A stretch of DNA of 64,000 nt. It comes from Arthrobacter pascens. GTDB lineage: Bacteria; Actinomycetota; Actinomycetes; Actinomycetales; Micrococcaceae. Below, one piece after another: positions 32,892 through 54,117 of this stretch (positions are counted from its first letter, which is position 1; each line of letters opens with the position of its first letter). The notes under the pieces were generated by a model. That model was not told the origin of the DNA and did no database searches. It worked only from the letters and a program-made list of their open reading frames with translations. A program made the translations under genes and the position numbers. The stretch spans positions 2,356,001-2,420,000 of the forward strand of contig NZ_JAUSWY010000001.1 in the NCBI RefSeq assembly GCF_030815585.1, in the 5' to 3' direction.

Positions 32892-33164
32892 TCAGACTTC
32901 TTCGGTCGGCGTCTCATCAAGGTCGCCAGCCGCAATTCGTTCTGCCGTTTTCCTGTATGCGTCGTCGATGTAATCCTGCAGATCATCGGTCCCGATCCGC
33001 CAGATGTTCCTTCCGCCCAACTGAAAGCCACGCAGTTCGCCGCTCTTCAGCAGGCCGCGTACCAGGGGTTGGCCGATGTTCAGTTCCGTCGCTACCTGAT
33101 CAATGGTCAGGAAACGCGGAGATGGCTTGTTCTCTTCGGGCATGGATCCATCGTATGTGTCCAT
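32892..33164 (-). CDS. Excisionase-like helix-turn-helix protein
   Basis: The likely product is 90 residues from ATG 33164 (ATG 33143 is an alternative). Its core, RFLTIDQVATELNIGQPLV then GELRGFQLGGRNIWRIG, is an HTH_17/MerR-like single winged helix used by phage excisionases and small DNA-binding proteins. The tail DDLQDYIDDAYRKTAERIA follows. Near-identical small proteins are widespread in Arthrobacter genomes. It probably binds DNA; targets are unknown. It is on the same strand as, but 428 bp downstream of, the HEPN-motif operon. Confidence 0.75.
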   Translation of the reverse strand: MDTYDGSMPEENKPSPRFLTIDQVATELNIGQPLVRGLLKSGELRGFQLGGRNIWRIGTDDLQDYIDDAYRKTAERIAAGDLDETPTEEV

Positions 33165-33592
33165 GCGTCCCGGTTCCGGAGGCAGAAACTGCAGTATGTG
33201 GCTAACCTGCTCGCCCACGGCGAGCCTTGGCAGCAGCTCGGAGCCAGGTTCGTGCAGGTGCTGCATCCGCGCGATGAACGCCGCCCGTGTTTGAAGGCAG
33301 GTCGGCCACCGCTGACATGCAGGTTCGCGAACGAGGAAGAGCTCATCGACGGCGACAGGGGACGTTCATGGGTGCCCTGCCGGCGCTGTAAGGGATCGCG
33401 CCGGGCCACCAACGCGAAAAACGCAGCCGTGAACAGCGTCGTATGTTGCTCAGTTCCAACTGATGGTTCCTTGCTCGGCTATGCTGAACGGCACCATTCC
33501 CCCACGTCTCTCAACGATGCGCACTTGGGGGATCCTCTTCCAGAGACAGTCGTTTACCGGCAGATACCGGCCACCGTGGTCCCCCATCGCCA
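33165..33592. other. Intergenic region without supported gene
   Basis: Frames here are short and not protein-like. CGGCTATGCTG near 33477-33487 matches the -10 region of the orphan gene at 43745, so a promoter is possible, but no gene follows on that strand. Confidence 0.35.
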
Positions 33593-34864
33593 TCAGAGCG
33601 GGTAGTCCTTGGCATCGGGCCAAGGCTCTTTCCAGTCTCGGTTCTGCGGGTGGCTCGATAGCCACTGGCGAATGTTGATCAGGACTTCATCGACGTCGTG
33701 CAGAAGGTCCCGCTGCTTGCGGATGAAGGTGTGGTCCGTCACGTTGGTGCGCAGGGCGTGGGCGGGCTTCTGGCGCGCCGCGCGGATCGCGCGTAGGGGT
33801 TTCAGCGCCCACTTCACAGCATCCGCCTTCACATGGTTCATCGTCATGAACAGCTCAAGCCGACCGAGGGTGCCCAGACGGTCCCCTCTCTCGTTCACGT
33901 GCGGAACCTTGGCCTTGTCGAGTGCAGCGCCGTCGATGTTGTCCGACAGGAGCTTGTCGAACGAGTGAATGAAGTGGTCCCACTCCCGCTGGTCGGCCCG
34001 GAGGATCCACCCGAAGTCCTCAGGCAGCTCGTGCGAACGGAAGAGACGCGCGCCCCACACGTTCTCGAACAGATCGCTGATGGCTTTGAGCTCCTGGGCG
34101 AGCCGGGCGAACGGTCCCATGCCTTCTGGCCAGTGGCCCATCTGTGAGCCGTACCAGACGGGATGAGGGTCGATCCCTTCCAGGTCAACCTGGAAACTCG
34201 CCCAGCGCTGCTGGTGCTCAGGTGTCAAGTCGTCCAAGTCGCCGTAGAAGGCCGCGACGCGTCGGACGATTGGGGCATCCGCGACCTCTGGGTCGTATTG
34301 GCGCATGTCGTAGGCGAAGCCGAGGTGCATAAGTCCGACTTTGTCCTTCTTCGGTTCGTCCTTGTTGTCGTATGCCTCGTCGGACAGCCAGAAGTTGATG
34401 CCGAAGTCGCTCATGCCGAACCTGAAGCGGGCGTCGTTGCGGTAGCCCTCGAGCACATCCGGGCTGAAGAAAGCGAGCTCCAATGTAGACCGGCCACGCG
34501 CCATGGCCCTGGCGAACGGGGCATCTTCGAATTTCTTGGGCAGCTTCAACCGCTTCAGCGCCCTCGCCTTGGGGTAGAGGCAGACCCCGTAGTCGTCGTC
34601 GGAGAGCCCACGAAGCTCTTCGATCTGCTGGGCGACGGTCCTTCGCGAAGGCCAGGGACGGATGTGGATGTTCATGTAGTCGCTCGGGCCCACGACTTCG
34701 ATCAGGCCGGCAACTACCAGTTCTATCGCTGTCTCGATCTCGTCGCCTGAGTTTCGGGTGGTGCTGACATGCAGCCCGTTGAAGTCCCGCGACTCCATGT
34801 AGCGCCGCTTCACCTTCTTCAGCAACTCGCGCGCAGACGTGGAGAGGTCGTCTTTTGCAGCCAT
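33593..34864 (-). CDS. Uncharacterised protein with C-terminal R-x4-H (HEPN-like) motif
   Basis: The 423-residue protein was not recognised as a whole. Residues 1-160 are mixed alpha/beta with HIRPWPSRRTVAQQIEELRG and LELAFFSPDVLEGYRND. Residues about 210-310 hold FENVWGARLFRSHELPEDFGW. Residues 335-405 are strongly helical, with AVKWALKPLRAIRAARQKPAH: Arg364 and His369 form R-x4-H, the catalytic pattern of HEPN RNases, in the usual helical setting. No membrane segment or nucleotide-binding loop is seen. It lies 6 bp downstream of the TIGR02391-type gene on the same strand, so the two are one operon. An RNA-cleaving, defence-type role is inference from motif and pairing. Confidence 0.7.
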   Translation of the reverse strand: MAAKDDLSTSARELLKKVKRRYMESRDFNGLHVSTTRNSGDEIETAIELVVAGLIEVVGPSDYMNIHIRPWPSRRTVAQQIEELRGLSDDDYGVCLYPKARALKRLKLPKKFEDAPFARAMARGRSTLELAFFSPDVLEGYRNDARFRFGMSDFGINFWLSDEAYDNKDEPKKDKVGLMHLGFAYDMRQYDPEVADAPIVRRVAAFYGDLDDLTPEHQQRWASFQVDLEGIDPHPVWYGSQMGHWPEGMGPFARLAQELKAISDLFENVWGARLFRSHELPEDFGWILRADQREWDHFIHSFDKLLSDNIDGAALDKAKVPHVNERGDRLGTLGRLELFMTMNHVKADAVKWALKPLRAIRAARQKPAHALRTNVTDHTFIRKQRDLLHDVDEVLINIRQWLSSHPQNRDWKEPWPDAKDYPL

Positions 34865-34870
34865 GCCGAT

Positions 34871-35779
34871 CTAGCCGTTTTCCCTGGTCATAACCTGGCT
34901 GGGTTCGACTGCAGGCTGTGGTGACACCTGCTCGGCCTCAGAGGCGGTCGCGCCATCGACTGACACAACCACACACCGGTCCACGAACTTGGCGAGAACG
35001 CTCAGCGTCGCTAGTTGTTCGATGCCGTCTTGCTCGGTGAAGTCCTCTGCAACGTGCGTCGCCGGGTTCCGGATCACCATGTTCACCCCCGGGGCGAAGC
35101 TCAGCAGTCCAGCCTGCATGGTCTTGACGTCCTGGTCACCCGAGTCGCCGGGCCAGCGCAGGCGGGGCTTACCCTCCTGAGGGTCGGCGATAGCGAACGC
35201 CTGCTGCCACAGAGAAGTGTCGCTCGCGTTGTTCCGATCGGTGAGCTGCTTCATTTGGCCGCTGACGGCTTCCGCGGAGGCCGCAACTGCTGGCCGCAGG
35301 TGACCGTCGTTCCAGAGACGTTGGGCCGCAGCCCACACCAAAGGGTGCAAGAGCGAGGGCTCGATCGTCGGCGACGAGAGCGCCTCGGCCTTCGCCTGGA
35401 GACCTTCCAGCCGACCTGCGCCCTGGAGGCAGAGGCCTCGGAGGACAGGAGCGTCGAGCAGAGGCTTCGGCTCGAGCATCCGCTGCCAGTTCACGAAGGG
35501 GTCGAGCACCCCGACTCCCTGGACTACGAGTCGGACGTTCGTGACGCTGCTGAGATCCATGAGCGCGCCGGCGAGACGGTTCAGCTCATCAGTGAGAACT
35601 TGGACGCGTGCCTTGTCAGCGCTGTCCTTCGGCAGGACAGCTGGAGCGATCCCCACGGCCATAGCCCCGAAGCCGGAGTTCTCGACATGGTGCGTCATGA
35701 ACTCCTCGAACGTCCTCGAGAACTCGTCGAGGCGCTTCGCCAGGAATTCTAAGTACTCGCTGTTCGTCCGGACGTCCAT
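34871..35779 (-). CDS. TIGR02391 (Hypoth_Ymh, HEPN-type) family protein
   Basis: I place the start at ATG 35779, where GGGGGAG precedes it and sensible protein begins; upstream in-frame text is Arg/Pro-rich noise. The 302-residue protein has an N-terminal helical part (KRLDEFSRTFEEFMTHHVEN) and a C-terminal domain from about residue 140: LLHPLVWAAAQRLWNDGHLRPAV and GLLSFAPGVNMVIRNPATH. This matches TIGR02391/Ymh proteins, which belong to the HEPN superfamily. Arg237 and His242 form the R-N-x3-H catalytic motif. Such proteins occur in phage-defence and mobile loci. It is first in a two-gene operon with the 423-residue protein. Confidence 0.75.
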   Translation of the reverse strand: MDVRTNSEYLEFLAKRLDEFSRTFEEFMTHHVENSGFGAMAVGIAPAVLPKDSADKARVQVLTDELNRLAGALMDLSSVTNVRLVVQGVGVLDPFVNWQRMLEPKPLLDAPVLRGLCLQGAGRLEGLQAKAEALSSPTIEPSLLHPLVWAAAQRLWNDGHLRPAVAASAEAVSGQMKQLTDRNNASDTSLWQQAFAIADPQEGKPRLRWPGDSGDQDVKTMQAGLLSFAPGVNMVIRNPATHVAEDFTEQDGIEQLATLSVLAKFVDRCVVVSVDGATASEAEQVSPQPAVEPSQVMTRENG

Positions 35780-36130
35780 GTCTCCCCCTGATTCAGTCGT
35801 GGCGTTCGCGCCCAAGTCGTCTATTGTCGTGGATCGGTCACCTGCCACAAGTCTGCCGGAATTGCGCCGACTCTCACGAACTGGTGGCTGTGCGTGCCGC
35901 ACTGGAGCACGTGTTGTTCGTGGAGGTCGAGTTTCCGGCACCGCTCTCACACATAGTCACTTAAGGGCATACCCCCGGCGGAGTGTGTGCATCAGTCTGG
36001 TGATGTGCTCGTAAACGAGCGAAAAGCGAGCTTCAGATCGGTGCCAGCACGCCAATATCGCCCTCGCCACCACATGCTCATGTGTTGGCGATCTCCGGCA
36101 CTGCGATGGAGTTGCCGGCTCCGCAATGTC
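35780..36130. other. Leader region of the HEPN-motif operon
   Basis: No gene is supported. The region should hold the minus-strand promoter of the HEPN-motif operon; I could not pick convincing -35/-10 boxes. Confidence 0.35.
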
Positions 36131-36403: not shown

Positions 36404-36646
36404 AATCTCTCGCCGTCCGCAAGCCCTCCGGCCCGCCATCAGCCCGAAGAGGGCCTCGACCGCTGGTGGACGCCGCCGGGGCGGGATCTGATCACGCATT
36501 CCTCGTCGCCGCCTGGTATGTTCCAGCGCGGTCGAGCCCGCAAGGGCTGCGGCCACATGCCGACGGGCTGCTTATTGCCTGCACCTGATCAGGCGGTATC
36601 GGATAAGGGCATCGGCGGGCAGAGAGCCCTGCGGTAGTTCCCCAAA

Positions 36647-36674: not shown

Positions 36675-36681
36675 TGAAAAG

Positions 36682-36697: not shown

Positions 36698-37010
36698 AAC
36701 CGCACCCAGCTTCGACATGGAAAAGAGGCAAAGAACTTCAATGCCGGGGACGGATTGAATCATGTTGCGAAATTCCAGTATCTCCATGAATTGACGGGAA
36801 GCAATCTTGCTTTTGTCATTCTGAAAATCCATCATCGTTGGGCCGGTCCGGCGCACGATCCCAGCCTCAATGGCTGAGCACGCTGGCGCCGTTTGCTTGA
36901 TTACCGAATTTCTTGATGGCATCTCCTGTCCGTCGATCTCCTTTTCAGGATGCCCTAACCATCCCGCGGCCGGGCGTAGCGCCCGCACTGCGTTCAAAGG
37001 GAGAAGGAAC

Positions 37011-38045
37011 ATGGAAGCACTCACCATCAAAACCCCCGCCGATGTCCTCAGTTTCGTTGGACATACTCTCGGCTTCTGGCCCAAGGAGAGTCTGGTCTGC
37101 ATCACGCTCGACAAGAAGAATATCGTCGGGGCCACACTACGAGTGGATCTGCCCAAGACCGACGGCGGACTCTTCACTTACGCCCAAACAGTCGCCGGCT
37201 ACATCACGAATGATGCGAATGCGTCAACGGTCCTTTTTGCTGTGTATACGTCAAAACCTTTGGAGTCTGGTGCGGAGAAACCGCATGCTCGCACCGTCGC
37301 TGCCCTGACTGGCGCGCTGGCCCAACAAGGTATCTCCATCCGGGACGGATTACTTGTCGGAGACGACGCGTGCTTGCCATACGACGGCAACTACTTGAGC
37401 AGCCCGTCCATCCCCCTGGCCGCAACCCAGTCCAGCGAAATCAACGCCGAATTCGTGTACCGCGGGAGCCAAATCGAGCCTCGCGGCATCACGCTCCCTG
37501 CCTCAACCAAAGAAACCTTGACGACCGACGCAGTCCTGGACCGGATGGAAGAAATTCGAGGCCTCCCTAGCCCCGAAGCGTTGGACCAGGCCCGCAGCCT
37601 CTGGGCGTCCATGCTGCACGGGAAGACTTATCCCACTGACGAGGAGACCGTCAGTCTGATCGCCAACTTCCAGTTCGCCGCGATCCGCGATCGACTCATG
37701 GCGGACATCCCAGGAATCGACGAACCGATGGTCCAGGTTCTCCTTGCCCAGACCCAGGGCAAACCACAATGGTCCAGGGTTGAATGGGCGCAGCAATTGC
37801 TCATACACGCCTATACGCACAGCAGCACCCAACACTCAGCAGCTTTGTTGACCGCCGTCGGATACATCAACTGGTGGGAAGGCCGAGGCAGCAAGGCCCA
37901 TCAATTCCTGCAGCTCGCCCTCGAGGCAGACCCCGCCTATAGGCTGGCCCGGCTCAGCGACCAAATGGTCGCACATGGAATGCTTGCGCCGTGGAGCGCT
38001 GACAGGGACAAGGCGTTCGGACCGCGAGGGCTCGAAGCCTCCTAA
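37011..38045 (+). CDS. DUF4192 domain protein
   Basis: The start ATG 37011 follows GGGAGAAGGAAC and gives 344 residues. The N-terminus reads IKTPADVLSFVGHTLGFWPKESLVCITL, the DUF4192 signature, and the C-terminus has VGYINWWEGRGSKAHQFLQLALEADPAYRLARL, also typical. DUF4192 proteins are soluble actinobacterial proteins of unknown function, common on plasmids and in conjugative elements. It is the first gene inside the module bounded by the dif-like repeats and ends in a terminator. Confidence 0.8.
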   Translation: MEALTIKTPADVLSFVGHTLGFWPKESLVCITLDKKNIVGATLRVDLPKTDGGLFTYAQTVAGYITNDANASTVLFAVYTSKPLESGAEKPHARTVAALTGALAQQGISIRDGLLVGDDACLPYDGNYLSSPSIPLAATQSSEINAEFVYRGSQIEPRGITLPASTKETLTTDAVLDRMEEIRGLPSPEALDQARSLWASMLHGKTYPTDEETVSLIANFQFAAIRDRLMADIPGIDEPMVQVLLAQTQGKPQWSRVEWAQQLLIHAYTHSSTQHSAALLTAVGYINWWEGRGSKAHQFLQLALEADPAYRLARLSDQMVAHGMLAPWSADRDKAFGPRGLEAS

Positions 38046-38072
38046 CCGCAGGCTTTCAGCGCCACATTTCAC

Positions 38073-38107
38073 AGAACCGTCGACTCGCCGTCGGCGGTTC
38101 TTCTTTG
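38073..38107 (+). terminator. Terminator after the DUF4192 gene
   Basis: AGAACCGTCGAC (38073-38084) pairs with GTCGGCGGTTCT (38090-38101), with one G-T wobble and a 5-base loop, followed by TCTTTG. Strong stem and short U-rich tail. Confidence 0.65.
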
Positions 38108-38332
38108 CCTCCGTGTCCGGGCACCTTCAGCGGCCTTTGCCCATGAAGCCAGTCCCCCGAATTCTCATACGGTCCGCGCACACGGTCACAGGCGCCCAGA
38201 AAGCGCGCCGGTTCACTTGCCCGGCCCCCAGTGAAAGTCTCATCAGCGCCTTCACACCTCTGGCATCCAAGGCCGCCGCCGTGTGCACCGACTCAGGCCA
38301 AGTCATGTTGCAGTCAGACGCCGAGTTGATGA

Positions 38333-38884
38333 ATGAACGTGAAGAGGAAGATTTGCCAGGAATGCCGCGTCGGCTTCGAAGCGTCCCGCAAAACGCAGCG
38401 GTTTTGCTGCACGCGCTGCGCCGACAGACAGCGGGACCGACGACGGCGGAAACGGAACAAGGGAGTGGTCGTTGGCGCCAATGAATCCTCACCAGCAGAG
38501 TCCCCAAGGCGCCAAGAAGCTCAGCGCACTCCCCAACCCGCCATCGAACCACGCGCGAGCAGTCGACAAACCAATGCGACAACCAAACGCTGCCAACTAG
38601 CCATGGATGCACTTCAGACACAATTGCGGTCCCAATCCTTGGACCTGGACCGCCTTGAAGCTGACAACGCAGAGCAACAGGCGCGCATAAGCGTCCTCCA
38701 AGGGGAACTCGCCCGCCTTAAGAGGGCACAGCGAACTAATGTCCAGGATCTAGCCCACGTCGCAGCAAGGGTGGTAGCTGTCACCCAAGCAAAGCAGGTG
38801 CCACTGGACACCAAGACGATAGAAATTCTCCGCCGTCGAGGTTGGATCTCAAACAAGCGCCGAGCGGAGGCAAGAGGGCGATGA
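38333..38884 (+). CDS. Zinc-finger/coiled-coil protein upstream of TraA
   Basis: The 183-residue protein has an N-terminal Cys cluster, CQECRVGFEASRKTQRFCCTRC, fitting one zinc site, then a very basic stretch (RDRRRRKRNKG). Residues about 85-135 form a coiled coil (LRSQSLDLDRLEADNAEQQA). The C-terminal end has TIEILRRRGWISNKRRAEA. Its stop overlaps the TraA start (ATGA), so the two are translationally coupled. A role as a DNA-binding accessory protein of the relaxosome is inferred from basic charge and position; no named family was recognised. Confidence 0.65.
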   Translation: MNVKRKICQECRVGFEASRKTQRFCCTRCADRQRDRRRRKRNKGVVVGANESSPAESPRRQEAQRTPQPAIEPRASSRQTNATTKRCQLAMDALQTQLRSQSLDLDRLEADNAEQQARISVLQGELARLKRAQRTNVQDLAHVAARVVAVTQAKQVPLDTKTIEILRRRGWISNKRRAEARGR

Positions 38885-41800
38885 CCATGTCCATCGCCCG
38901 GCTCTCCGCTCAGACGGGCCTGAAGTACCTCTTCAAGACAACGATGATGGACGACGTCACCGTCACTCCCCCGGACGCCACGACTTACTACATGAAGGCG
39001 GGGACGCCCCAAGGCAGGTGGCTTGGTTCAGGCCTCAGCGGCATTAACCGCGCCACCGGAGACGTCGTCACGGAGACCGATGCCAAAGCGCTTTTCGACC
39101 ACGCCGTCCACCCGGACACCGGCGTCCCCTTAGGCCAGCCACATGGTCAACCCACCATCGTTCAATCCAGCCAAGGCCAAACAACCAAGCGCCACGCCGT
39201 TGTCGGATTCGACCTGACCTTCAGCGCCCCAAAGTCAGTTTCGGTCCTCTGGGCCCTTAGCCCCCGCACCATGCAGGACCAGATCCTGCAAACGCACCAC
39301 GAAGCCGTTGCAGCCACCCTTCGTTGGCTCGAGGAGAACGTCATCCACACGCGAGCGGGGCGTAACGGTATCGCCCGCATCGGCACGAAGGGCGCCATCG
39401 CTGCTGCGTTTGACCACTGGGAATCGCGGGCCGGAGACCCACAACTGCACACCCACTTAGTCATCGCCAACCGCGTTCAGCGCATCACCGACGGCGCTTG
39501 GGTCACCTTGGACTCCCGGACCCTCTACAAAGCGGCCGTCGCGGCCAGCGAGCACTACAACGGACTCCTCTTCGATGCCCTGCACCGGAACCTCGGGACC
39601 GACGCGGAGATCCGGAAACCGGCAGCCAACACACACAACCCAACCCAACAGCTCATCGGCGTCGACGACGAACTGATCCGAGAATTCTCCAACCGCTCCC
39701 GGCTCATCGACCTGGAAACCGACCGTCTCGTGGCCGCTTGGACCGAGGAACATGGTAAACGTCCAAGCGCTACTACAACAGTGAAGCTGAGGCAGCAGGC
39801 GACGCTCTCAACGCGAGCGCCTAAAGCTGAGGCAGTCGCCCCGCTTCGCGTGCTCTCTCGACAGTGGCAGGCACGCGCCATCGCGAGGGGCTTCGAGCCT
39901 GGCCGCATTCTCCTCGAGACGGTACGACGCTCGCAAACCTCACCATTTCGCAGCAGTGACTTCACCGCGGACTGGGTGGAAGCCGTTGCCTCCATTACCA
40001 AGGATCGTGTGGCGGCCAAACGCTCCACCTGGAACCGTTGGAATCTACTGGCCGAGGCCGAACGGGTTTGCGCCGCAGTCCGCTGCCAAACTCCCGGGGA
40101 CCGCAACAGCCTGATCGATGCCATTGCTACGGCCGCTGGGATGCAGTCCGTCCCCCTCAATGAGTGCCGATACCGCGTCGACGCGGACGCGGCGCCTGAC
40201 CTGCGCCTCGGTAAGCAGAGCGTCTTTGATTTTCATGGCGCACGACTTTACACCGACGCCAAAACCCTCGCCGCTGAGGACGTCATTATGCAAGCAAGGA
40301 ACGACGACGGCGGCCCTGCCGTGCGCGCCACCGTCACCATGGACGCGCTCGCCAACTACAGGCATCACGGCCTCTTTGAACTGCACGCGGACCAGCGCTC
40401 CGCGGCTGCCGAGGTTCTGCTGAGCGGGAACCGGCTCGACGCCGTCGTGGGGCCGGCCGGCACGGGCAAAACCACCACCCTCGGGGCTGTAAAGGCCGCG
40501 TGGGAATCAGAGTTTGGTGCAGGCAGCGTCGTCGGATTAGCTCCGGCGGCGGCGAGCGCCGAGGTTCTCGGACGGGAACTGACCATGGACACGGAAAACG
40601 TCGCCAAGTGGCTCTATGAATCCGTGGGTCAAGGGGCCAGTTATCGAGCGTCGCGTTTTTTCGAGATGGAGCGCCGCCTCGACGCCGAGGCGAATCCCCT
40701 TAGCTTCCGACGAACGCGTCTGGCTCAAGAAACAGCTCGGTTGGCAGCGGAACAGAACAGGTGGCGTTTTCATGCGAACCAGCTTGTCGTCGTCGATGAA
40801 GCCTCAATGGTGTCCACGATTCAGCTCTCCGCATTGGTATCTCAGGCACGAGACGCCGGGGCCAAGATCCTCCTAGTGGGCGACCCTGCCCAGCTGGATG
40901 CCATCGACGCGGGCGGCATCCTTGGCTGGCTGGACCGGCAAGGAAAAGCGGCGAGGCTGAGTACGATTTGGCGGTTTGAGCAGAGGTGGGAACGAGAGGC
41001 GTCGCTAAAGCTTCGCTCAGGCGATTCCGCTGCCATCGCCGTCTACGATCAGCAGGGACGCATCCGGCACGGTTCCTATGTCAATATGGTCGATCAGGCC
41101 TATGTGAACTGGCAATCCGATATCCAATCCGGAAACTCGTCCATCCTCATAGCAGCAGACAATGACACAGTCGGCATCCTCAACGAACGTGCCCAGGCCG
41201 ATCTGGTGATCCAGGGTGTCGTGGACGCGGAGCAGACTGTCCTGCTCAGCGACGGGCTGCGTGCCGGCCGGGGTGACACGATCATCGTCCGCCACAACGA
41301 CCGCACCGTCTGGGACAGCAACGGTGACTTCATTCGCAACGGAACCATGTTCGACGTCGGACGCGTCGCCAAGCGCGACGGCTCCCTCGTGGCTGTCCGC
41401 AGGGATACAGGAGGGGTTGTTACCTTGTATCGCGACTATGTTCAGTCCGCGGTTGAGTTGGGGTATGCCACAACGGCACACCGTTCCCAGGGCCTCACGG
41501 TGGACACCGGCCACACGGTCGTCACACAGGGGCGGCTCACCCGTGAACTCCTGTATGTGGCCATGACCCGGGGGCGCATCGGTAATCACGCATACGTCAG
41601 CCAGAACGATCCCCTCGATCACGATCCTTTGGACCCGTCGGTGCAACCGTCGTGGCGCGAGATCTTGGGTGAGGTCCTCGCTGCAGAAGGTGCTGAGCGC
41701 ACTGCCCATGAGGTCCGCGAGGCCGAACATTCCAAAGCCGATAGCTTGCAGCGGCTTGGCGCCGAGTACGACTACCTTGCCCAGATCGCGGCCGGTGAGC

Positions 41801-42456
41801 ACCTGGCTGAGTTCCTTCAGTCCGGTGCGCCCGAGCGGATCAAGGAGATCCTGCAATCTCCCTCGTGGGGTGCGACTGTTGCAGCCTGGCGCCGCTGCTC
41901 TCCAATCAGCCGTCCAAGCGCCCAGCGAGTTGTGCTCGAAACGTTGGAATCAAGCTTGTCGGCTAGAGATCTTGCGTCTGTCCTTCACTCCCGACTTCGG
42001 GGACTTCTCTCTCGCTTGCCTTCAGATGGATTCACAACGATTCCTGAGGTTCTTCACCCGAGCCGCTCCGATCTGAGAGACATGATTCGCCAAGTGGCAG
42101 AACGAATGCAGCGTCGGGCAGACGATGTCGCGGAAGCCGCATTGCTTCATGAGACCGAATGGAAGCGAGACCTTCTACAGTCCCTCGGACAGGAGACAGA
42201 GCCCGAAGAAGCTAGACGTCTTGTTCGCGAAGTCGCTATCTTCCGAGATACGTGGGGGGTCGAAGACTCTCCGCTTGCGCTCGGACCAGTGGCGCCGGAC
42301 TACGAATGGGAACAGCAAGCGCAGCGGGCGAGCATCGAGCGTCAAATGTCTCAGGCCGCCCCCCTCGCTTCAGCCGGATCTCAGCAGCCAGGGGCATGGA
42401 TGAAGACGCCGAGTCAGTGCGAGCCAAGTCTCATCAATGTCGGATGGCAGCTCTAA
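38881..42456 (+). CDS. traA: MobF-type conjugative relaxase-helicase TraA/TrwC
   Basis: The 1191-residue protein starts at ATG 38881. Residues 1-310 are a TrwC relaxase: catalytic Tyr pair in DATTYYMKAG near residue 36 and the three-His metal motif in FDHWESRAGDPQLHTHLVI near residues 178-192. Residues about 490-900 are a RecD/TraI-type helicase: Walker A VVGPAGTGKTTTLG (near 523), Walker B LVVVDEASMVS (near 637), GDPAQLDAIDAGGIL (near 667), and the late motifs ATTAHRSQGLTVDTG and LLYVAMTRGR. It nicks oriT and unwinds the transferred strand. The oriT itself should be close, perhaps in 36700-37000 or 38046-38330, but I could not identify it. Confidence 0.92.
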   Translation: MTMSIARLSAQTGLKYLFKTTMMDDVTVTPPDATTYYMKAGTPQGRWLGSGLSGINRATGDVVTETDAKALFDHAVHPDTGVPLGQPHGQPTIVQSSQGQTTKRHAVVGFDLTFSAPKSVSVLWALSPRTMQDQILQTHHEAVAATLRWLEENVIHTRAGRNGIARIGTKGAIAAAFDHWESRAGDPQLHTHLVIANRVQRITDGAWVTLDSRTLYKAAVAASEHYNGLLFDALHRNLGTDAEIRKPAANTHNPTQQLIGVDDELIREFSNRSRLIDLETDRLVAAWTEEHGKRPSATTTVKLRQQATLSTRAPKAEAVAPLRVLSRQWQARAIARGFEPGRILLETVRRSQTSPFRSSDFTADWVEAVASITKDRVAAKRSTWNRWNLLAEAERVCAAVRCQTPGDRNSLIDAIATAAGMQSVPLNECRYRVDADAAPDLRLGKQSVFDFHGARLYTDAKTLAAEDVIMQARNDDGGPAVRATVTMDALANYRHHGLFELHADQRSAAAEVLLSGNRLDAVVGPAGTGKTTTLGAVKAAWESEFGAGSVVGLAPAAASAEVLGRELTMDTENVAKWLYESVGQGASYRASRFFEMERRLDAEANPLSFRRTRLAQETARLAAEQNRWRFHANQLVVVDEASMVSTIQLSALVSQARDAGAKILLVGDPAQLDAIDAGGILGWLDRQGKAARLSTIWRFEQRWEREASLKLRSGDSAAIAVYDQQGRIRHGSYVNMVDQAYVNWQSDIQSGNSSILIAADNDTVGILNERAQADLVIQGVVDAEQTVLLSDGLRAGRGDTIIVRHNDRTVWDSNGDFIRNGTMFDVGRVAKRDGSLVAVRRDTGGVVTLYRDYVQSAVELGYATTAHRSQGLTVDTGHTVVTQGRLTRELLYVAMTRGRIGNHAYVSQNDPLDHDPLDPSVQPSWREILGEVLAAEGAERTAHEVREAEHSKADSLQRLGAEYDYLAQIAAGEHLAEFLQSGAPERIKEILQSPSWGATVAAWRRCSPISRPSAQRVVLETLESSLSARDLASVLHSRLRGLLSRLPSDGFTTIPEVLHPSRSDLRDMIRQVAERMQRRADDVAEAALLHETEWKRDLLQSLGQETEPEEARRLVREVAIFRDTWGVEDSPLALGPVAPDYEWEQQAQRASIERQMSQAAPLASAGSQQPGAWMKTPSQCEPSLINVGWQL

Positions 42457-42477
42457 ACTGGGCAGCGAAAGGAACCC

Positions 42478-43056
42478 ATGACCTCGAACCCAGTCCTCAA
42501 GCCCAGGTTGGCGACACCCGCGCTGATATTGGCCACTGCGACGGTCTTGATTGCCGCCGGCTACTTCCTGACAACCTTGAGCACCCGTGTGCCCGTTGAC
42601 GCGGTCCTGATGGTTGGTGCGCTTGCCGCCCTGTCGGCGGTTGCCCTGGGGGCCGTGTGGCTCGCTCGGCTTCGCCGCCGCCGCGCTTGGATGGCGGCCG
42701 CCGAACAAAAGTGGCACGACTTCGACGACGCCAGGCGAAACCATGGGACGACCACTGAAATCACGGTTCTCAGTGTCGACGCTCTGGAACCCACTGGATC
42801 CTGGATCACTATCAACTGGGACCGTTTCGATCACGTTCAACATGCATGGATCGAAGCTTTGCCGGATCCGATCTGGCCCGGATCCGTTCTGTTGATTTCG
42901 CCGGACCCGGCCCAGGTCCAGCCAGGTTTGCCGTGGCCGCAAATGTACTACATCAGGAGCTCTGACACGCATGCATGGGCTCCGCGCGCAGACCCGATCA
43001 GGAAACTTGGGAAGTTTCCACATCGGGCTGACCGTCCGCGTAGCTTTCGGAATTAG
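42478..43056 (+). CDS. Small membrane protein downstream of TraA
   Basis: The 192-residue protein starts after AAAGGAACCC, 21 bp behind traA. Two N-terminal helices, LILATATVLIAAGYFLTT and AVLMVGALAALSA-type text near residues 15-65, are followed by an Arg-rich cytosolic stop (RLRRRR) and a soluble domain of about 120 residues with DRFDHVQHAWIEALPDPIWPG. No family was recognised. Spacing puts it in the traA transcript, so a role in transfer is possible. Confidence 0.65.
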   Translation: MTSNPVLKPRLATPALILATATVLIAAGYFLTTLSTRVPVDAVLMVGALAALSAVALGAVWLARLRRRRAWMAAAEQKWHDFDDARRNHGTTTEITVLSVDALEPTGSWITINWDRFDHVQHAWIEALPDPIWPGSVLLISPDPAQVQPGLPWPQMYYIRSSDTHAWAPRADPIRKLGKFPHRADRPRSFRN

Positions 43057-43732
43057 TGTCCGAGACATGCAGGACCAAACGGTGGCGAATACTCGCTTAC
43101 ACACGCACTGGACGAGGTGGCCGCCTGGCCTCTCATGGAGCAGGACGATTACCCCGGCTTACGGTGACAAGGTGAAGTATTCCGGAAAATCTAGCGTCTA
43201 GGACAGGGCAAGCATCATCTACAACTCCCCGGTCAGGGGGAGGGAATCCCAGAGGACGCCACCGCTACATGCCGGGGTTCCGGTTCGCGGAGGAACGAAT
43301 TGTCGATCGGTACCACGTCAAATTGACAAGCGTTTGGGATGGCCGCCGATCCTCATCACTGGTCCCGTGGGCACAAACAACCCCTTACGTCATCGACCTG
43401 ATCGTGGCACTGAGCCTGAGACCAACAGAAGCATAGCCTCTCTGCCGGAGCTGGGATTGCTCGAGCTGCAACGCACCAACAAGTTCTCTTTTCCTCAGTG
43501 ACAGGCTCACCCAGGCGCCCCGCATGCGTTGCCAGGCCGGTGCTCAAGCCCTGTGTTCGCTCCCAACGTCCGAGGATGACAGAAGACCTTTCCAAGACGG
43601 ATGCTCGCAACGTGAGTTCCGTGAGCCCTGAGCCACGGAAAACCCCTCACATTCGGGCGAGGGAAAGACAAGTGCTTGGCCTAGAAATATAGACGTAGAT
43701 GACACTCAAGGGCGCTGTTTGCGTTTCCCGGC
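43057..43732. other. Intergenic region without supported gene
   Basis: One frame near 43250-43435 reads HRYMPGFRFAEERIVDRYHV but lacks a start and matches nothing I know. The rest is non-coding by appearance. Confidence 0.35.
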
Positions 43733-43738
43733 TATGCT
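43733..43738 (+). promoter_or_regulatory. -10 element for a probable leaderless transcript
   Basis: TATGCT lies exactly at -12 to -7 relative to the A of the ATG at 43745. There is no ribosome-binding site before that ATG, so transcription probably begins at the start codon. Leaderless mRNAs are common in actinobacteria. Confidence 0.5.
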
Positions 43739-43744
43739 GGCGTC

Positions 43745-44413
43745 ATGTTTGGTCGGCAGCCGTTGCAGGACTCCAAGTTGGAGATTCTTTTGTCAGACCT
43801 GAAGAGTCGGCAAGAAGAAATACATCATCGCCTCAATCAGGAAAGCAGCAGTTACCTCGCTCTTTTTGCCGTCTTTGTTGGCACGGTTGGAGCTCTCGCA
43901 GCCGCTTCAACGTGGGCGAGCTCAGTTCCGTTGGAGCTGCAAGCGTATCTACCCGCCGTCTGCCTGCTGTTCGCATTGACACTCCTGTGGCTCCCTGTCA
44001 ACGAAGCACATCAGCAACTCAATATCCGTCTATTGGCGGTGTACATCAGCGAGCGGCTTGTTCCTGAAATCCGACAGCATTCGGCGATCGCAGAAAAGAA
44101 GGCCGGCAGAGTGCCGCCGAAAGAAGGCTCGCCGCTTCTGAGCTGGGAATCCTACCGTAACGAACGCTTCCTGTCCGTTAAACTCTCTAACGTTCCTTTG
44201 TTGATCGCCGTAATTTGCCGCTCCGCTGTTCCGTACGGGCCCTTCTTAGCAGCTTTTGCTTATTACAGCACCATCCCGACACGGTTGACTGAAGGTTCGG
44301 GGTTTCTCCTGGAGGTTGTCCTTCTACTGTTGATAGGGGCCGCTTTAGTGACGACTCTGGGCATCATACTAATGCTGGCTTTCGACCGCCGATTTCAGGT
44401 GCGCCCTGACTGA
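43745..44413 (+). CDS. Uncharacterised four-helix membrane protein
   Basis: The 222-residue protein begins with a charged, coiled-coil-like stretch (LEILLSDLKSRQEEIHHRLN), followed by helices SSYLALFAVFVGTVGALAA and YLPAVCLLFALTLLWLPV, a cytosolic loop of about 80 residues, and two more helices near residues 145-205 ending VVLLLLIGAALVTTLGIILM. The two-helix, loop, two-helix layout recalls small membrane effectors such as SLATT-type proteins, but I cannot assign it. The region is visibly more AT-rich than the tra genes. It precedes the ATPase fragment at 44543. Confidence 0.6.
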   Translation: MFGRQPLQDSKLEILLSDLKSRQEEIHHRLNQESSSYLALFAVFVGTVGALAAASTWASSVPLELQAYLPAVCLLFALTLLWLPVNEAHQQLNIRLLAVYISERLVPEIRQHSAIAEKKAGRVPPKEGSPLLSWESYRNERFLSVKLSNVPLLIAVICRSAVPYGPFLAAFAYYSTIPTRLTEGSGFLLEVVLLLLIGAALVTTLGIILMLAFDRRFQVRPD

Positions 44414-44542
44414 GTAGTTGCTTTGGGCGCAGGTTTCTTAGGAACAGCGCGGTCATACCTTGGGCGAGGCCGAACTGCTGGTCAGCGAGTTCGTAGATTT
44501 AATGCGCCAGAAACTTCGGCCGCTTCGTAGTAGGTTTTTGAC

Positions 44543-45145
44543 ATGAAAGCTCTGGGCCGGGGCGCGGGTCAACAGCGGCCGTTTAGCCGCGCTACTGCCT
44601 CCATTCCGGAGCCATCATCCTGGGTGTGGGAAACGTTCTTCTACTCCGAGGTGTCAGGACTCCCAACGAAGGAATACCTGTCACGAACTGTGCTTCCCCG
44701 GCCTCGAGATATCGTCTATTTCTACAATGCCGCCGTCGGCCGCGCCATTGATCGACGAAACGAAAGGGTTCTGGAAGGAGACTTCCTGTCGGCCGAGGAG
44801 ACGTATTCAAGGTACGCCTACGAAGCATTGCTAGTTGAAAATGGTGTCACCATCCCGGAGATGGAAGATGCTCTATTCGGTTTCCTGGGTTGCAACCACG
44901 TCCTCAGGGTTAAGGACGCCCAACTGGCCATAGGTTCAGCAGGCGTTGTCGAGCACCGTATACGCCCTATCCTCGACAAGCTGATCTCGATGTCATTCTT
45001 GGGCATTGAGATTAAGCCTGGAGTGTTCCATTTTCCAGAGGTCGGAAGTGACTTCCAACGAAGCGTGAGGTTGCCTTTCTCCAGCCATCCGGGGATGACC
45101 AGAGGCTTAAGGTTCATCCAGCTTTTAAAACTTCTTGGCAGTTGA
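44543..45145 (+). CDS. C-terminal fragment of a P-loop ATPase (Sll1717-like)
   Basis: The 200-residue frame contains LPRPRDIVYFYNAAVGRAIDR, FLSAEETYSRYAYEALLVEN and, later, IRPILDKLISMSFLGIEIKPG. These match the C-terminal winged-helix part of large P-loop ATPases of the Sll1717 type, which sit in putative defence and signalling loci. The ATPase domain itself is missing: there is no Walker motif in the frame or in the 130 bp upstream. It may be a decayed gene or a stand-alone adaptor; a start at ATG 44543 has no good ribosome site. Confidence 0.55.
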   Translation: MKALGRGAGQQRPFSRATASIPEPSSWVWETFFYSEVSGLPTKEYLSRTVLPRPRDIVYFYNAAVGRAIDRRNERVLEGDFLSAEETYSRYAYEALLVENGVTIPEMEDALFGFLGCNHVLRVKDAQLAIGSAGVVEHRIRPILDKLISMSFLGIEIKPGVFHFPEVGSDFQRSVRLPFSSHPGMTRGLRFIQLLKLLGS

Positions 45146-45252
45146 CGCGAAAGACGACGTGCAGCAAGCAACCTGACGTGGCCACTTCGATAACAGCGTG
45201 TGACAGGCATTCCGCCTCCTGAGCCGCTGAAAATTGACTCAATGCATGGTGC

Positions 45253-45280
45253 AGACCCACCCCGTGGACGCGGTGGGTCT
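45253..45280. terminator. Bidirectional hairpin between convergent genes
   Basis: AGACCCACC (45253-45261) pairs perfectly with GGTGGGTCT (45272-45280). It lies between the convergent ends of the ATPase fragment and ssb; no T-run follows on the plus strand. Confidence 0.5.
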
Positions 45281-45303
45281 CCCCCATTGAGACTGCTGAG
45301 TGT

Positions 45304-45816
45304 TCACCAGCTCATCTCATTCCCCGTTGTCGCGACAAAAGGGGGCACCACAACCGGGCCCTTCGTCGACACGTTGTAGGCAGGGGCAGAAGTGGCGCCG
45401 ACCACGGGCGTCTGAGGGCCGGCGTCGACTTGGGCATCCGGACGTGCATCTGTTGTGCGTGATGATCGCTGATAGATCACGGTTCCGAATCGAAGGTCGG
45501 GCCCGATGGTATCCGCAATAATCCGGCGTGCTTCGCGCCGTTCTCCGTCTTTCTCGTACGCACGGAACTCAAGCTCGCCCGCCACGTTGACGGGGTCACC
45601 CTTCTTCAATGAATTGGCAACATTCTCTGCGAGCGCCCGGAAGGCCGAAACGTTGTGGAAGACTGGTTCGCCGTCTTGCCAGGTGCCGTCTGCTCCCTGG
45701 ACTCGCTGGTTCACCGCGACGCGCAGCTTGGCATGAGCAACGCCGCTTTCTCCAATGGTGAGCTCAGGATCGGCGACGAGGTTACCCGTGATGCTTACTG
45801 GGATTTTCGTGCTCAT
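45304..45816 (-). CDS. ssb: Single-stranded DNA-binding protein
   Basis: The 170-residue protein has an OB-fold: PVSITGNLVADPELTIGESG, then VFHNVSAFRALAENVANSLKKGDPVNVAGELEFRAYEKDG. A Pro-rich flexible tail ends NEMSW, a variant of the usual acidic DxxF/W-type tip. Plasmid-borne SSB protects incoming single strands during transfer. It is 58 bp downstream of the ArdC-like gene on the same strand, with a hairpin in between. Both would be useful early after DNA entry. Confidence 0.88.
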   Translation of the reverse strand: MSTKIPVSITGNLVADPELTIGESGVAHAKLRVAVNQRVQGADGTWQDGEPVFHNVSAFRALAENVANSLKKGDPVNVAGELEFRAYEKDGERREARRIIADTIGPDLRFGTVIYQRSSRTTDARPDAQVDAGPQTPVVGATSAPAYNVSTKGPVVVPPFVATTGNEMSW

Positions 45817-45835
45817 TCTTCTTTCCTTTCTGTGT

Positions 45836-45856
45836 TGAGCGGGTCTCTCCCGCTCA
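45836..45856. promoter_or_regulatory. Intercistronic hairpin before ssb
   Basis: TGAGCGGG (45836-45843) and CCCGCTCA (45849-45856) form an 8-bp stem with a 5-base loop, 20 bp before the ssb start codon. In single-stranded form during transfer such a hairpin could act as a promoter or as a processing site; this is speculation. Confidence 0.45.
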
Positions 45857-45874
45857 TCAGTGTTGCGATTATGG

Positions 45875-47035
45875 CTATGGGCCAGCCATCACAGGCCCAT
45901 CAGGCTTCACCCCGGGGCCGGCACCGGCGTACGTCGCCGCCGGAGTGGCCCGAAGGTCCGCTTCAGGGCCGGCAATCTTCCCCCCGAATCCTGGCGGATG
46001 CGTCAGTTCCAGGATCCCCTTCGTCGCAGCAGTGACCCGCCCGAGGACTGACTTGGCTACATCCACGCGGGACGTGGGGTGTCGGCTGTACATGTCCTGT
46101 TCGAACGCTGCCCGCTGAACTTGAATCACGGTTTCTGCCCATCCCGACAGGTACAGCGCCGATTGGTCCCCGCGGTCAATTCCGTGGGCCCGCAGAACGG
46201 TGTACGCGACGGATTCGGCTTCGATTTCAGCAAGTCCGCGGTGGTCTGCGCTGCTGCCGTACTGTTTGCCCGTCTCGTCTTCAGGGCCGTGAAGCATCAC
46301 ATGCCCCAACTCGTGTGCCAGTACTGCAACCCGGTCTTCGGTGTTCATCCAAGCTCCCACCTCGATCCGATGCTGCGAGAAGTCAGTGAAACCACTGGCG
46401 AGACCGTGCTGAGCGTCAGAGAGATGCAATTCGAAACCATGCCGTCGAGCCACGTTGGCGAGTGACTCCCACAACTCCGGAGCACTAACTGCACTCTCTG
46501 TTCCACCGCGGGGCACCAGGAGCGGCCTGCCCTGCGTTTGTGAGACATCAAAAACCGCCTGCCCACGCCAGCCGGTGATGATTGTCTTCTTCCCACCATC
46601 AGCACCGCCCCGCGGCCAACTATCTCCAACTGGAATACGCTGCCGGGCACCGTCGGGCATGACCACCTCTTGCACACGAGCTGTTCGAGGCGCGATCACC
46701 CACAACGCGTGCTCACCCTTCAAGACTCGCCGGCCGTGCCGGTCCCACTCCCTGTACCCAGCAACGAGGCTGGGCTCCTCCGTACCACGCTGGGCCATCT
46801 GCATCATGAGCAAGGCAACGTTCCCGCCCGAGTACCGCCACAGAGTTGCCGAAGCGTCCAAGAGCACCTGCCACTGGGACGGTGACTCCACAGCTTGCTC
46901 GAGGTGGGCATGAAGCCCTTCAGTCAGTGCAGCAATACGCTCCTCGGGGGTCATCCGCGTCTTGCCGAGTTCCTCCATCCCTGGGGTAGAACCCAGCAGA
47001 AAAGTGCCATGTACGTCCTCAGACATCGGAGCCAC
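45875..47035 (-). CDS. ardC: ArdC-like antirestriction protein with zinc-protease domain
   Basis: About 386 residues from GTG 47035 (GGAGG eight bases upstream); ATG 47026 is an alternative. The N-terminal part has WQVLLDASATLWRYSGGN and VAGYREWDRHGRRVLKGEHA, typical of the ArdC N-terminal single-strand DNA-binding domain. The C-terminal part has VAVLAHELGHVMLHG near residue 240, an HExxH-type zinc site of the IrrE/ImmA class, with ADHRGLAEIEAESVAY supplying the third ligand. ArdC proteins shield plasmid DNA from restriction after conjugation. It is upstream of ssb in one operon. Confidence 0.8.
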   Translation of the reverse strand: MAPMSEDVHGTFLLGSTPGMEELGKTRMTPEERIAALTEGLHAHLEQAVESPSQWQVLLDASATLWRYSGGNVALLMMQMAQRGTEEPSLVAGYREWDRHGRRVLKGEHALWVIAPRTARVQEVVMPDGARQRIPVGDSWPRGGADGGKKTIITGWRGQAVFDVSQTQGRPLLVPRGGTESAVSAPELWESLANVARRHGFELHLSDAQHGLASGFTDFSQHRIEVGAWMNTEDRVAVLAHELGHVMLHGPEDETGKQYGSSADHRGLAEIEAESVAYTVLRAHGIDRGDQSALYLSGWAETVIQVQRAAFEQDMYSRHPTSRVDVAKSVLGRVTAATKGILELTHPPGFGGKIAGPEADLRATPAATYAGAGPGVKPDGPVMAGP

Positions 47036-47114
47036 GACAGCCACCTCCACGCTTCTAAGCTCCACCAATCGGCGGATACCTATTCATGTCCTAAGGGGCG
47101 CCCACAGCATGACT

Positions 47115-47624
47115 TCAGAAATCAGCCCCCAGCTGATGCGGTTCCGCCTGCCACTCCAGAAGGGCAGGATCATCCGTCGAGAGAATCCGTCGCGGTGGTT
47201 CTTTGTGCGCCTGAAGACCAACGCAACCAGCCGCCCGGCAGTGCGTTCTGAGACGCTCGACGGCGTGAGGCAGCCGCTCGTGGAGGGCCAGCGGTCCGAA
47301 CCCGGAGTCGTCTGCTGCGTAAGAGGCGAGCTCAGCCCTCTGGAGGGCATACAGCTCAGCCACAATCTCAGGGTGACGCCACCAGCAATCGGGAACCACC
47401 GACGTCGTGAGCTGGTACGTGGCGACGAACCACCTCACCCACACTGCCAAGGCACGCCAGGCGCTTTCAGACTGCTGGGCGTCCATGTCCCGCCATCTGT
47501 ATGTCACGCCAGACGTACCCCCGGGGGGACGGAATGCCGAGCGGAATAGTTGCGCGGTTAGCTCGTCGTCGTCCCCTCCAACTGATGGGATTTCAAAGCG
47601 TTCGCCATCCTCATAACTGCTCAT
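47115..47624 (-). CDS. DUF4913 domain protein
   Basis: The 169-residue product from ATG 47624 (or 47627, both after GAGGGAA) overlaps the end of the coupling-protein gene by 14 bp. It has a central ALAVWVRWFVATYQLTTSVVP and DCWWRHPEIVAELYALQRAE, the DUF4913 signature. Such proteins recur beside actinobacterial conjugation genes, yet their role is unknown. The C-terminal 50 residues are basic (HCRAAGCVGLQAHKEPPRR). It is the last gene of the transfer operon. Confidence 0.72.
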   Translation of the reverse strand: MSSYEDGERFEIPSVGGDDDELTAQLFRSAFRPPGGTSGVTYRWRDMDAQQSESAWRALAVWVRWFVATYQLTTSVVPDCWWRHPEIVAELYALQRAELASYAADDSGFGPLALHERLPHAVERLRTHCRAAGCVGLQAHKEPPRRILSTDDPALLEWQAEPHQLGADF

Positions 47625-49428
47625 CATCTGTTCCCTCAGTTGCCTTCTGGCGCAGCCTGTGGCCATCTGCCAACGTTCGTTCGACTTCCATCTTTGACCG
47701 CCCGAGCTCGGCTGCGTCCTTGCGCTTGTGCCATTCCCTGAGGTCCAGGAGTATCGGCCGTGTACGCCTGCCCAGCATGAGTGCCGTGCCAACAGGCAGC
47801 CGACGGATCTCATCGAGCCGAATGACAGGACTCTCCCTGATCTGCTCGCCGTCCTGCCGGCCTTGGGAAGACCAGGAACGGGTATTCAAGATGAGGCTTC
47901 TCTCCCCCAGCAGGCCGGCCAGGGAACGAAGGTCACGTTCATCGGAACCCCCTCCGAAAATGACCTTGATAATGGCCGAGTCCCAAATGGTGGCTGCCTC
48001 CTCAATCGACCAGCCGGTACGTGCTTGCGAAAGCGACTGCAGCACCACCAGCGTGGAGATTCCTATCCCGCCTCCATCGGAAAGAGCGACGGGCAGGCCA
48101 GGCCATGGGGCCAGGTTGGCGATCTCGTCGAGGATGAGCGACAGGGGCGGATCCAGCCGGCCGCCGGGCGACACGAAGGCCACCTCGCGGGCCGCGTTGT
48201 CGATGTCGTCGATGAGCGCGGAAAGGTACGGACCCGCGGCGGCGGCTCCAGCCCGAGTGCCGATCAAATAGAGGGTGCCGCGCTCACGGATAAACGCCTT
48301 GGGATCAAACTCCTCGGACGCTTCCTGAGGATCCAAAGCAGCCAGCACTTTAGGCGACGACAGCGGCGCTACGGCGGCCGATACACCGATCCACGAATTG
48401 GACGTGTTCCTGGGGTCGTCCTCAAGGATCCCCATGAGATCGGCCTGCCATCCCAACGCCGCCCCAGGACGACTCAGCACTTCCAGCGCTTCCCGGGCCA
48501 ACACGGGGCTCGAGGACCACCGGCGGAACGCACGTACGCCCTCCCCAGACAGGGCCGCAGCATGCAGCAGACACTGCAGAACGATCAGCGAGCGCTTTTG
48601 CCACGCCGCATTCTCGCCCTTCATCTCTGTGTCAGCTGTGATCACCAGCGCCCGTCGGGTGGCGATGTCGGGATCCTCACATCCGCGCACCGGCGACCAC
48701 CGGAGCGTGGAAGGCAGGCCTGACATCCCCTGCGGGTCGAATACCGTCACGGGTCTTCCGCCGGTGGCTCGCGCCCGCATCGTCACCACCAGGTTGTCGG
48801 CGCGAGTGGACGTCGTCACTACGGCGCCCGGTGCGTCGAGTATGGCGTTGATGACCACATATAGACCCTTGCCGGAACGGGGAGCGCCCTGAATCACCAT
48901 GGACTCTTCAGTCGACACGTGGACCGTGACGCCATGCGATCGCCCAAGCGTCCATGACACGTCCTCGATTTTGGGTTTGCTAAGTCCAGGCCGGGTGAAC
49001 TTTCCGCGTCGTCTGACCGCTCTGGCACCGAAATCGTGAAGGATCTCGGCACGTCCGGCGATTCCGTCTCGCTTCAAGATGTCCTGGCGAAGCCATGCTC
49101 CGGATTGCTTCCATCTTCGCCAGCCCAGGATGGAACCGACCGCGAGCCCAGCGACAAGGAGGAGAACCGGGCCTACTACCCACCACACATCGCCACTGCC
49201 GACGCTGCAGGTGGGGGCCTGCAGCAACACCCAGTCGATCCGGTCCATAACAAGCCCGACGGCGGCTGCCGGACTGAAGGGCGAGGGCTTCCCCGCGCCG
49301 CAGCGCCAAGTCACCACTATGGTGGCTGACGCCTGAACGAGAAGGCATAGGCAAAAGTAGCCGGCCATAGCCACGAGACCGGCGGTCACCAGTGGGCCGC
49401 TAGTCCCCCCGCGTGTCATGGTTCCCAC
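47611..49428 (-). CDS. traG: VirD4/TraG-type conjugative coupling protein
   Basis: The 605-residue protein has two N-terminal helices (residues about 15-35 and 82-102), Walker A MVIQGAPRSGKGLYVV near residue 180 and Walker B PLSLILDEIANLAPWPGLP near residue 440, with TLVVLQSLSQARTGW after it. This is the coupling-protein (TraM/TraD recognition domain) layout. It would dock the TraA-DNA complex to the channel and pump DNA. It directly abuts the VirB4-type gene; ATG 49419 is an alternative start. A GNNTSS-like long C-terminus is absent. Confidence 0.88.
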   Translation of the reverse strand: MGTMTRGGTSGPLVTAGLVAMAGYFCLCLLVQASATIVVTWRCGAGKPSPFSPAAAVGLVMDRIDWVLLQAPTCSVGSGDVWWVVGPVLLLVAGLAVGSILGWRRWKQSGAWLRQDILKRDGIAGRAEILHDFGARAVRRRGKFTRPGLSKPKIEDVSWTLGRSHGVTVHVSTEESMVIQGAPRSGKGLYVVINAILDAPGAVVTTSTRADNLVVTMRARATGGRPVTVFDPQGMSGLPSTLRWSPVRGCEDPDIATRRALVITADTEMKGENAAWQKRSLIVLQCLLHAAALSGEGVRAFRRWSSSPVLAREALEVLSRPGAALGWQADLMGILEDDPRNTSNSWIGVSAAVAPLSSPKVLAALDPQEASEEFDPKAFIRERGTLYLIGTRAGAAAAGPYLSALIDDIDNAAREVAFVSPGGRLDPPLSLILDEIANLAPWPGLPVALSDGGGIGISTLVVLQSLSQARTGWSIEEAATIWDSAIIKVIFGGGSDERDLRSLAGLLGERSLILNTRSWSSQGRQDGEQIRESPVIRLDEIRRLPVGTALMLGRRTRPILLDLREWHKRKDAAELGRSKMEVERTLADGHRLRQKATEGTDDEQL

Positions 49429-53805: not shown

Positions 53806-53817
53806 AATCGACTGGAC

Positions 53818-54117
53818 CTAGAACCCGAGCGGGAACGCACTCTGGGACCAGAGGATGTAGCCGTTGATGCCGCCCAGGATCGCGGCCACCGGGCCTGTCC
53901 AAAGCAAGATAGATCCACCGCCTGAGGCGAGGCGCGACGATTGACTCAGCTTGCCGGCCAAGAGCATCGCGGCCCCGATGATCGCCACGATCGCAATCAC
54001 AATGAATGCGCCGACCAGGATCCCTCCGCCGATCTGCTTTAGGGATTCAAGAAAAGGGAAATTCGCGTTTGGTGTGATCCCAGGATCCACCGCTGCCAGA
54101 AACATCTGGTGCTCCAT
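53818..54117 (-). CDS. Small pilin-like (VirB2/DUF6112-type) membrane protein
   Basis: The 99-residue protein (ATG 54117, or 54105) has two helices, GGGILVGAFIVIAIVAIIGAA and GSILLWTGPVAAILGGING, separated by a short polar loop. Size, topology and position directly before the TrbL-like gene fit the VirB2-like proteins of Gram-positive conjugation modules. It is the first gene of the transfer operon reading to 47115. Confidence 0.72.
   Translation of the reverse strand: MEHQMFLAAVDPGITPNANFPFLESLKQIGGGILVGAFIVIAIVAIIGAAMLLAGKLSQSSRLASGGGSILLWTGPVAAILGGINGYILWSQSAFPLGF

Follow-up and report, generated by a model that had tools for sequence, protein, structure and literature searches.

The gene pair in the window

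A stretch of 64,000 nucleotides from Arthrobacter pascens (contig NZ_JAUSWY010000001.1, positions 2,356,001 to 2,420,000; hereafter the window) contains two adjacent genes on the minus strand, for which an initial annotation had proposed two HEPN-like proteins and a candidate defence system. Both open reading frames were confirmed at their coordinates. The upstream gene (34871..35779, minus strand) encodes, from an ATG start, a PF09509 HEPN protein of the Ymh family with 302 amino acids (aa); an alternative longer frame with a GTG start reaches 35950 and would encode 359 aa. The downstream gene, here called gene B (33593..34864, minus strand), encodes a 423-aa protein that was assigned to no family by model search. 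The stop of the Ymh gene and the start of B are separated by 6 bp (34865..34870, minus strand), and this short gap suggests that the two genes share one transcript. A promoter and terminator scan of positions 33266-36870 detected neither element on the minus strand of the putative operon; one promoter-like and one terminator-like site were found, both on the plus strand.

The upstream protein is HEPN-like

The Ymh protein scored 71.8 bits with PF09509, for which the gathering cut-off is 25 (E 5.8e-20; domain at residues 144-265). With the NCBIfam model TIGR02391 it scored 20.9 bits against a cut-off of 39.45, and it was therefore assigned only to the wider PF09509 family. Thus, the earlier TIGR02391/Ymh label holds at the level of PF09509, but not for the TIGR02391 model itself. 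The motif reads R237-NPAT-H242, and R237, N238 and H242 were invariant in all 52 aligned rows; the single sequence contains one R-x4-H and one R-x5-H string. Residues 1-135 form a separate conserved region, mostly helical, that lies beyond the Pfam model, and a fold search with this region yielded scattered matches among unrelated proteins. A sequence search of the Ymh protein against solved structures returned one match, at chance level, and PADLOC 2.0.0 returned none. The Ymh protein is firmly HEPN-like.

Protein B probably represents a new HEPN-like family

Protein B matched no model above threshold in Pfam, NCBIfam, PHROGs or PADLOC 2.0.0 (0 matches) and no sequence in PDB, in agreement with the initial view that it belongs to no recognised family. 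A protein search found 299 homologues, with no Pfam domain among the 120 listed, and a profile search built from 14 diverse rows found 311; in each case scoring was limited to the 7996 candidates with the most words in common. PHROGs gave no match to 9 distant B rows at E 0.01, and a BFVD fold search gave none below E 0.001. When 14 B-family rows were compared with PADLOC, two weak matches were obtained, one row each (AbiEii, 0.017; CARF1--CARF_HEPN, 0.029). Profile comparison of B with known HEPN families yielded nothing above threshold, and sub-threshold matches appeared in single distant members only. A profile link between the C-terminus of B and Ymh was also tried, and none was found. The search for HEPN_Cthe2314 as the family of B matched nothing, controls included, and is therefore uninformative. 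Because B has no profile match to a named HEPN family, we term it HEPN-like and do not count it as a member of such a family.

The motif of B reads R364-QKPA-H369. Strings of the type R-x4-6-H are common in single sequences (B alone has two R-x4-H, three R-x5-H and two R-x6-H), so that conservation, and not mere presence, lifts the motif above chance. Conservation was quantified in 164 rows, comprising the listed homologues of 395-460 aa and the rows of an alignment that drew on 50 of the 120 listed homologues. R364 was kept in 163 of these rows and H369 in 162, although 38 rows are less than 35% identical to B and the lowest identity is 25%. In some distant homologues, R-x4-H was kept with different letters between R and H. 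The residue following R364 is Q365 in 159 of 164 rows, which is polar, yet not the N, D or H typical of HEPN proteins. HEPN proteins typically also have an acidic residue upstream of the motif, and two highly conserved residues in upstream helices of B (E258 in 163/164 rows, D303 in 161/164) are candidates for it.

A confident AlphaFold model of B comprises a winged-helix-like start (about residues 9-58), an alpha/beta middle part (about 59-247) and a HEPN-like helical C-terminus (about 250-405). In this model, a helix at 347-365 is followed by a loop and by the last helix at 380-403, which places the motif at the end of a helix and the start of a loop, with the helices numbered by position only. 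According to PMC3710099, HEPN motifs lie where helix 3 ends and the loop towards helix 4 begins, and the predicted position of R364-x4-H369 fits this rule. Comparison of the fold gave matches to HEPN toxins that were present but weak; these toxins were found among the matches spanning the C-terminal domain. The conserved motif and its placement in the AlphaFold model, alongside these weak fold matches, indicate that B is probably a new HEPN-like family. Hence, the proposal that both proteins are HEPN-like stands firmly for Ymh and with this probability for B.

Genes for defence lie beside B in other genomes

The genomic company of B was analyzed at 21 distinct loci with a full or nearly full B gene. 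Repeats of one genome were counted once (L002=L007=L027, L004=L030=L039, L010=L023, L011=L024, L012=L025, L014=L026, L031=L040, L032=L041, L033=L042, L036=L043 with L083, and L037/L038=L044), and seven places with a partial B gene lie outside the 21 (L005, L008/L028, L009, L013/L029, L015, L034/L045 and L035/L046). Gene calls in the compared loci came from a simple script based on the codon usage of the window, which is weak on loci of low G+C content.

Defence genes were found beside B in at least 7 of the 21 loci, namely type I restriction genes in three and BREX, DISARM, an Avs2-like gene and a candidate system in one each. In a Sinomonas locus (L004), genes of the size of HsdM and HsdS are followed by HsdR and then by B. 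In L024, B is divergent from a series of HsdM, HsdM, a gene that is HsdS by position, and HsdR. In L041, a B gene with an in-frame TGA codon lies between a TrwC relaxase and a RES-domain gene on one side and HsdR, Mrr and a type I methyltransferase on the other; the RES-domain protein of this locus carries HEPN_RES_NTD1. B directly follows PglZ and BrxL in L025 and is itself followed by a TrwC relaxase. In L043/L083, B precedes DrmD and DrmMI and then helicase, MZB and PLD genes that fit DrmA, DrmB and DrmC. The Avs2-like gene adjoins B in L042, and a PDC-S06 gene lies 1.7 kb from B in L044. In addition to these seven loci, L001 showed a weak Aga_REase-type match only (E 5.9e-9). The neighbour scan with family models covered 13 of the 21 loci, often with only one or two neighbours each, and L020-L022 were classified from their record annotation; L002, L003 and L017-L019 lay outside the scan, which makes 7 of 21 a minimum.

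The distance between B and HSDR_N matches was quantified in the 12 genomes with a full or nearly full B gene, leaving out named contigs, plasmids and viral contigs. Twelve matches, one of them under the cut-off, were detected in nine of these genomes, and none in the genome of the window. In three of the 12 genomes, B was located within 5 kb of an HSDR_N match (2.4, 3.3 and 4.7 kb), whereas uniform placement would predict 0.03 (P 3.5e-6, a value that is optimistic because mobile genes cluster in islands). Overall, the genes that accompany B elsewhere suggest a role in anti-phage defence.

B itself is sparsely distributed. It was found in 4 of 99 genomes of relatives, 9 of 395 of the family, 5 of 396 of the order and 3 of 396 of the phylum, the window's own genome and fragments included. 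Plasmid-borne distant members occur in Mycobacterium paragordonae, Agrobacterium vitis and Tenacibaculum finnmarkense, the last of which encodes a copy that ends short, at the motif. Four IMG/VR viral contigs carry B homologues, and B is surrounded by genes that look phage-like by eye in L017 and L018. A protein search of phage records matched neither B nor one distant homologue, and a near-identity DNA search of E. coli genomes with the same homologue gave no match.

Two further proteins without Pfam matches were observed next to B. In L026, from a more distant actinomycete of the same phylum, a 211-aa protein is encoded at 7853-8488, on the same strand and 67 bp upstream of B; its C-terminal end reads R-H-E-N-P-H (R-x4-H), and it is possibly another HEPN-like partner. 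On the IMG/VR contig L016, a 239-aa 'FIDILGFKN' protein (142-861) is encoded just before B with a 1-base overlap, and we presume that it resembles nucleotide-cyclase-type proteins.

Ymh and B recur as a local pairing

Ymh adjoins B in 5 of the 21 B loci, i.e. in the window, L001, L002, L003 and L040, all from close relatives. In L003, the B gene is frame-broken, and in L040 an integrase gene lies upstream. The gap between the two genes is 6 bp in all five cases (in L003 measured to the first ATG). The Sinomonas B in L004 has no Ymh at 88% identity to the B of the window. In L016 and L019, the available sequence ends about 1 kb upstream of B, so that a more distant Ymh gene would escape detection. 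B was absent from all eight Ymh-only loci examined (L075-L082), of which six represent the 28 genomes with Ymh and two a set of 50 plasmid records. Among the 395 genomes of the family, B was found in 9, Ymh in 28 and both in 2, compared to 0.64 expected under independence.

Among the listed clusters, 10 B clusters shared a longest contig of identical size with a Ymh cluster, whereas 0.64 would be expected by chance. Seven of these were among the 15 clusters at 80% identity or more and three among the 105 below, and one is the contig of L001. In a tree built from 77 B rows, 11 were labelled as paired on this basis; 10 of them fell into one clade of 16 rows and one lay outside. The labels required 7 changes, compared to 10.5 in shuffles, and none of 500 shuffles was as low; absence labels are uncertain in this comparison, as metagenome contigs are short.

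The neighbourhoods and the co-occurrence led us to reject Ymh-B as a conserved two-gene system in general. The idea that the two genes are kept together was thus not borne out by the neighbourhood survey, since 5 of 21 loci comes close to the genes being rarely neighbours, even though the spacing was retained wherever they were. Accordingly, the defence proposal survives for B by its company, but not as one conserved two-gene system. The Ymh-B pair looks like a recurrent local combination that defines neither family.

Other genes around the pair

An HTH_17/excisionase-family DNA-binding gene (32892..33266, minus strand) is located 326 bp downstream of B. It matches PF12728 (E 1.2e-8) and TIGR01764 (31.3 bits; cut-off 28.8). 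At E <=1e-15, matches to this gene were found in 17 of 59 genomes searched, the window's own included, all from a single genus; the host itself carries it twice. The family match expected by the initial annotation was thus recovered; a role as excisionase is putative, and the gene is only a candidate member of the Ymh-B unit. A small protein that resembles its product by eye is encoded at L083:6013-6261, beyond the DISARM cluster. An aldo/keto reductase gene (31726-32553) beside the pair belongs to a multi-copy family and has a second genomic copy with 78% DNA identity.

On the other side, the pair adjoins a conjugation module (36870..54117, mixed strands), as had been noted before and was verified with family models. 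It contains on the plus strand DUF4192 (36870-38045) and the TrwC relaxase (38842-42456), and on the minus strand SSB (45304-45816), an ArdC-like anti-restriction gene (45875-47068), the TraG/VirD4 coupling protein (47611-49428) and TrbL/VirB6 (52387-53805). As in the window, a TrwC relaxase also adjoins B at L041:875-6747 and L025:4348-9366. The pair may travel with the conjugation module.

Discussion

The best reading of these results is that B is an accessory or stand-alone ribonuclease (RNase) effector of defence islands, which in the window occurs together with Ymh beside a conjugation module. We assign a probability of about 0.6 to the view that B belongs to a HEPN-like family not catalogued before and acts in defence as an RNase effector. 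The HEPN active site is dimeric. HEPN proteins cleave RNA independently of metals and require the R and the H (PMC3710099), and they are described as backup suicide effectors (PMC3710099, PMC12839542). From this biology, we infer RNA cleavage, a dimeric site and a backup suicide role for B. Most likely, the winged-helix-like and alpha/beta parts would sense an infection-linked signal and hold the HEPN domain at the C-terminus inactive; the signal could be a nucleic acid or could come from a restriction, BREX or DISARM system next to B, as one of its subunits. After the defeat of the first-line defence, the R364/H369 site, probably formed across a B dimer, would cut host RNA, and the resulting growth stop would amount to abortive infection. 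In the window, B is probably co-transcribed with Ymh, which would act independently as a further HEPN RNase, either to the same end or in response to a common trigger, and the two proteins might be in contact.

Alternatively, and in line with the initial proposal, Ymh and B might work only together, either as a hetero-complex or in the manner of a toxin and its antitoxin, with one HEPN protein restraining or completing its partner. The common strand and constant gap in the five directly observed pair loci, the excess of size-matched contigs and the clustering of paired rows on the tree would fit this explanation, and an operon with two HEPN genes has a precedent in Bxe_C0808 with AbiU2 (PMC3710099). 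However, Ymh is missing from 16 of 21 B loci, including the closely similar Sinomonas one, no B accompanied Ymh in any of the eight Ymh-only loci, and the two genes co-occurred in only 2 of 395 genomes. We regard an obligate pair as unlikely.

Less probable still is a chiefly regulatory role, in which B would control defence operons by binding DNA, with the winged-helix-like start bound to promoters and a helical C-terminus that only dimerises. The secondary structure of the N-terminus, sub-threshold winged-helix matches in one distant member (TrmB, 0.088; HTH_27, 0.11) and the position of B at the head of the DISARM cluster and divergent from a type I system would be compatible with such a role. 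Yet a dimerisation helix would not need a near-invariant R-x4-H, and B is located behind BrxL in L025 and behind HsdR in L004, not ahead of them. Least probable of all, in our view, is that the R-x4-H is structural and B is no HEPN protein, with its activity residing in the conserved N-terminal and middle region and defence islands merely collecting the gene; both the position of the motif within the helical layout and the HEPN toxins among the fold matches to the C-terminal domain argue against it.

A wider but doubtful extension is that B founds a family of 'plug-in' suicide effectors with winged-helix, sensor and HEPN RNase parts. Such an effector could be added to a type I restriction, BREX, DISARM or Avs-like system, or to Ymh as another HEPN protein, and would fire on its defeat, so that unrelated first lines have a common second line. 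An RNase activity of B would mean that several unrelated anti-phage systems have an unnamed effector family in common, with a range that includes Actinomycetota, Agrobacterium and Tenacibaculum plasmids and four IMG/VR viral contigs. The family would then also make it possible to test directly whether suicide effectors are interchangeable among restriction, BREX and DISARM loci.

HEPN effectors beside restriction-modification (R-M) and BREX genes are already known as a kind, whereas the B family and its layout of winged-helix-like, sensor and HEPN-like parts have no model in the libraries searched. A literature search, which fell short of most subscription journals and of the supplement of PMC12839542, found no description of the B family. 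The 302-aa protein shares with Ymh HEPN proteins (PF09509/TIGR02391) the PF09509 domain, R-N-x-x-x-H and the helical layout, but adds the N-terminal region 1-135. Ymh has been described on its own, fused to paraMORC, AbiJ-NTD and AbiTii domains, and within R-M operons, and the accessible part of that account mentions no B-like partner (PMC3710099). The HepT/MNT-associated HEPN toxins (7bxo, 5yep, 7ae8) differ from B, which has 423 aa with winged-helix-like and alpha/beta parts, and no MNT gene was found among the B neighbours scanned. The anticodon nucleases PrrC and RloC are likewise HEPN RNases beside R-M genes that act as a second line (PMC3710099), but B has no ABC ATPase match. EC042_2821/DUF3644 proteins combine a winged helix-turn-helix with HEPN near R-M genes (same source), yet neither B nor 50 of its relatives matched DUF3644. 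The location of B directly after PglZ-BrxL in L025 resembles that of the HEPN proteins that serve BREX and BREX-related systems as stand-alone backup effectors (PMC12839542); the B family, however, is also found beside type I R-M, DISARM and Avs2-like genes and beside Ymh.
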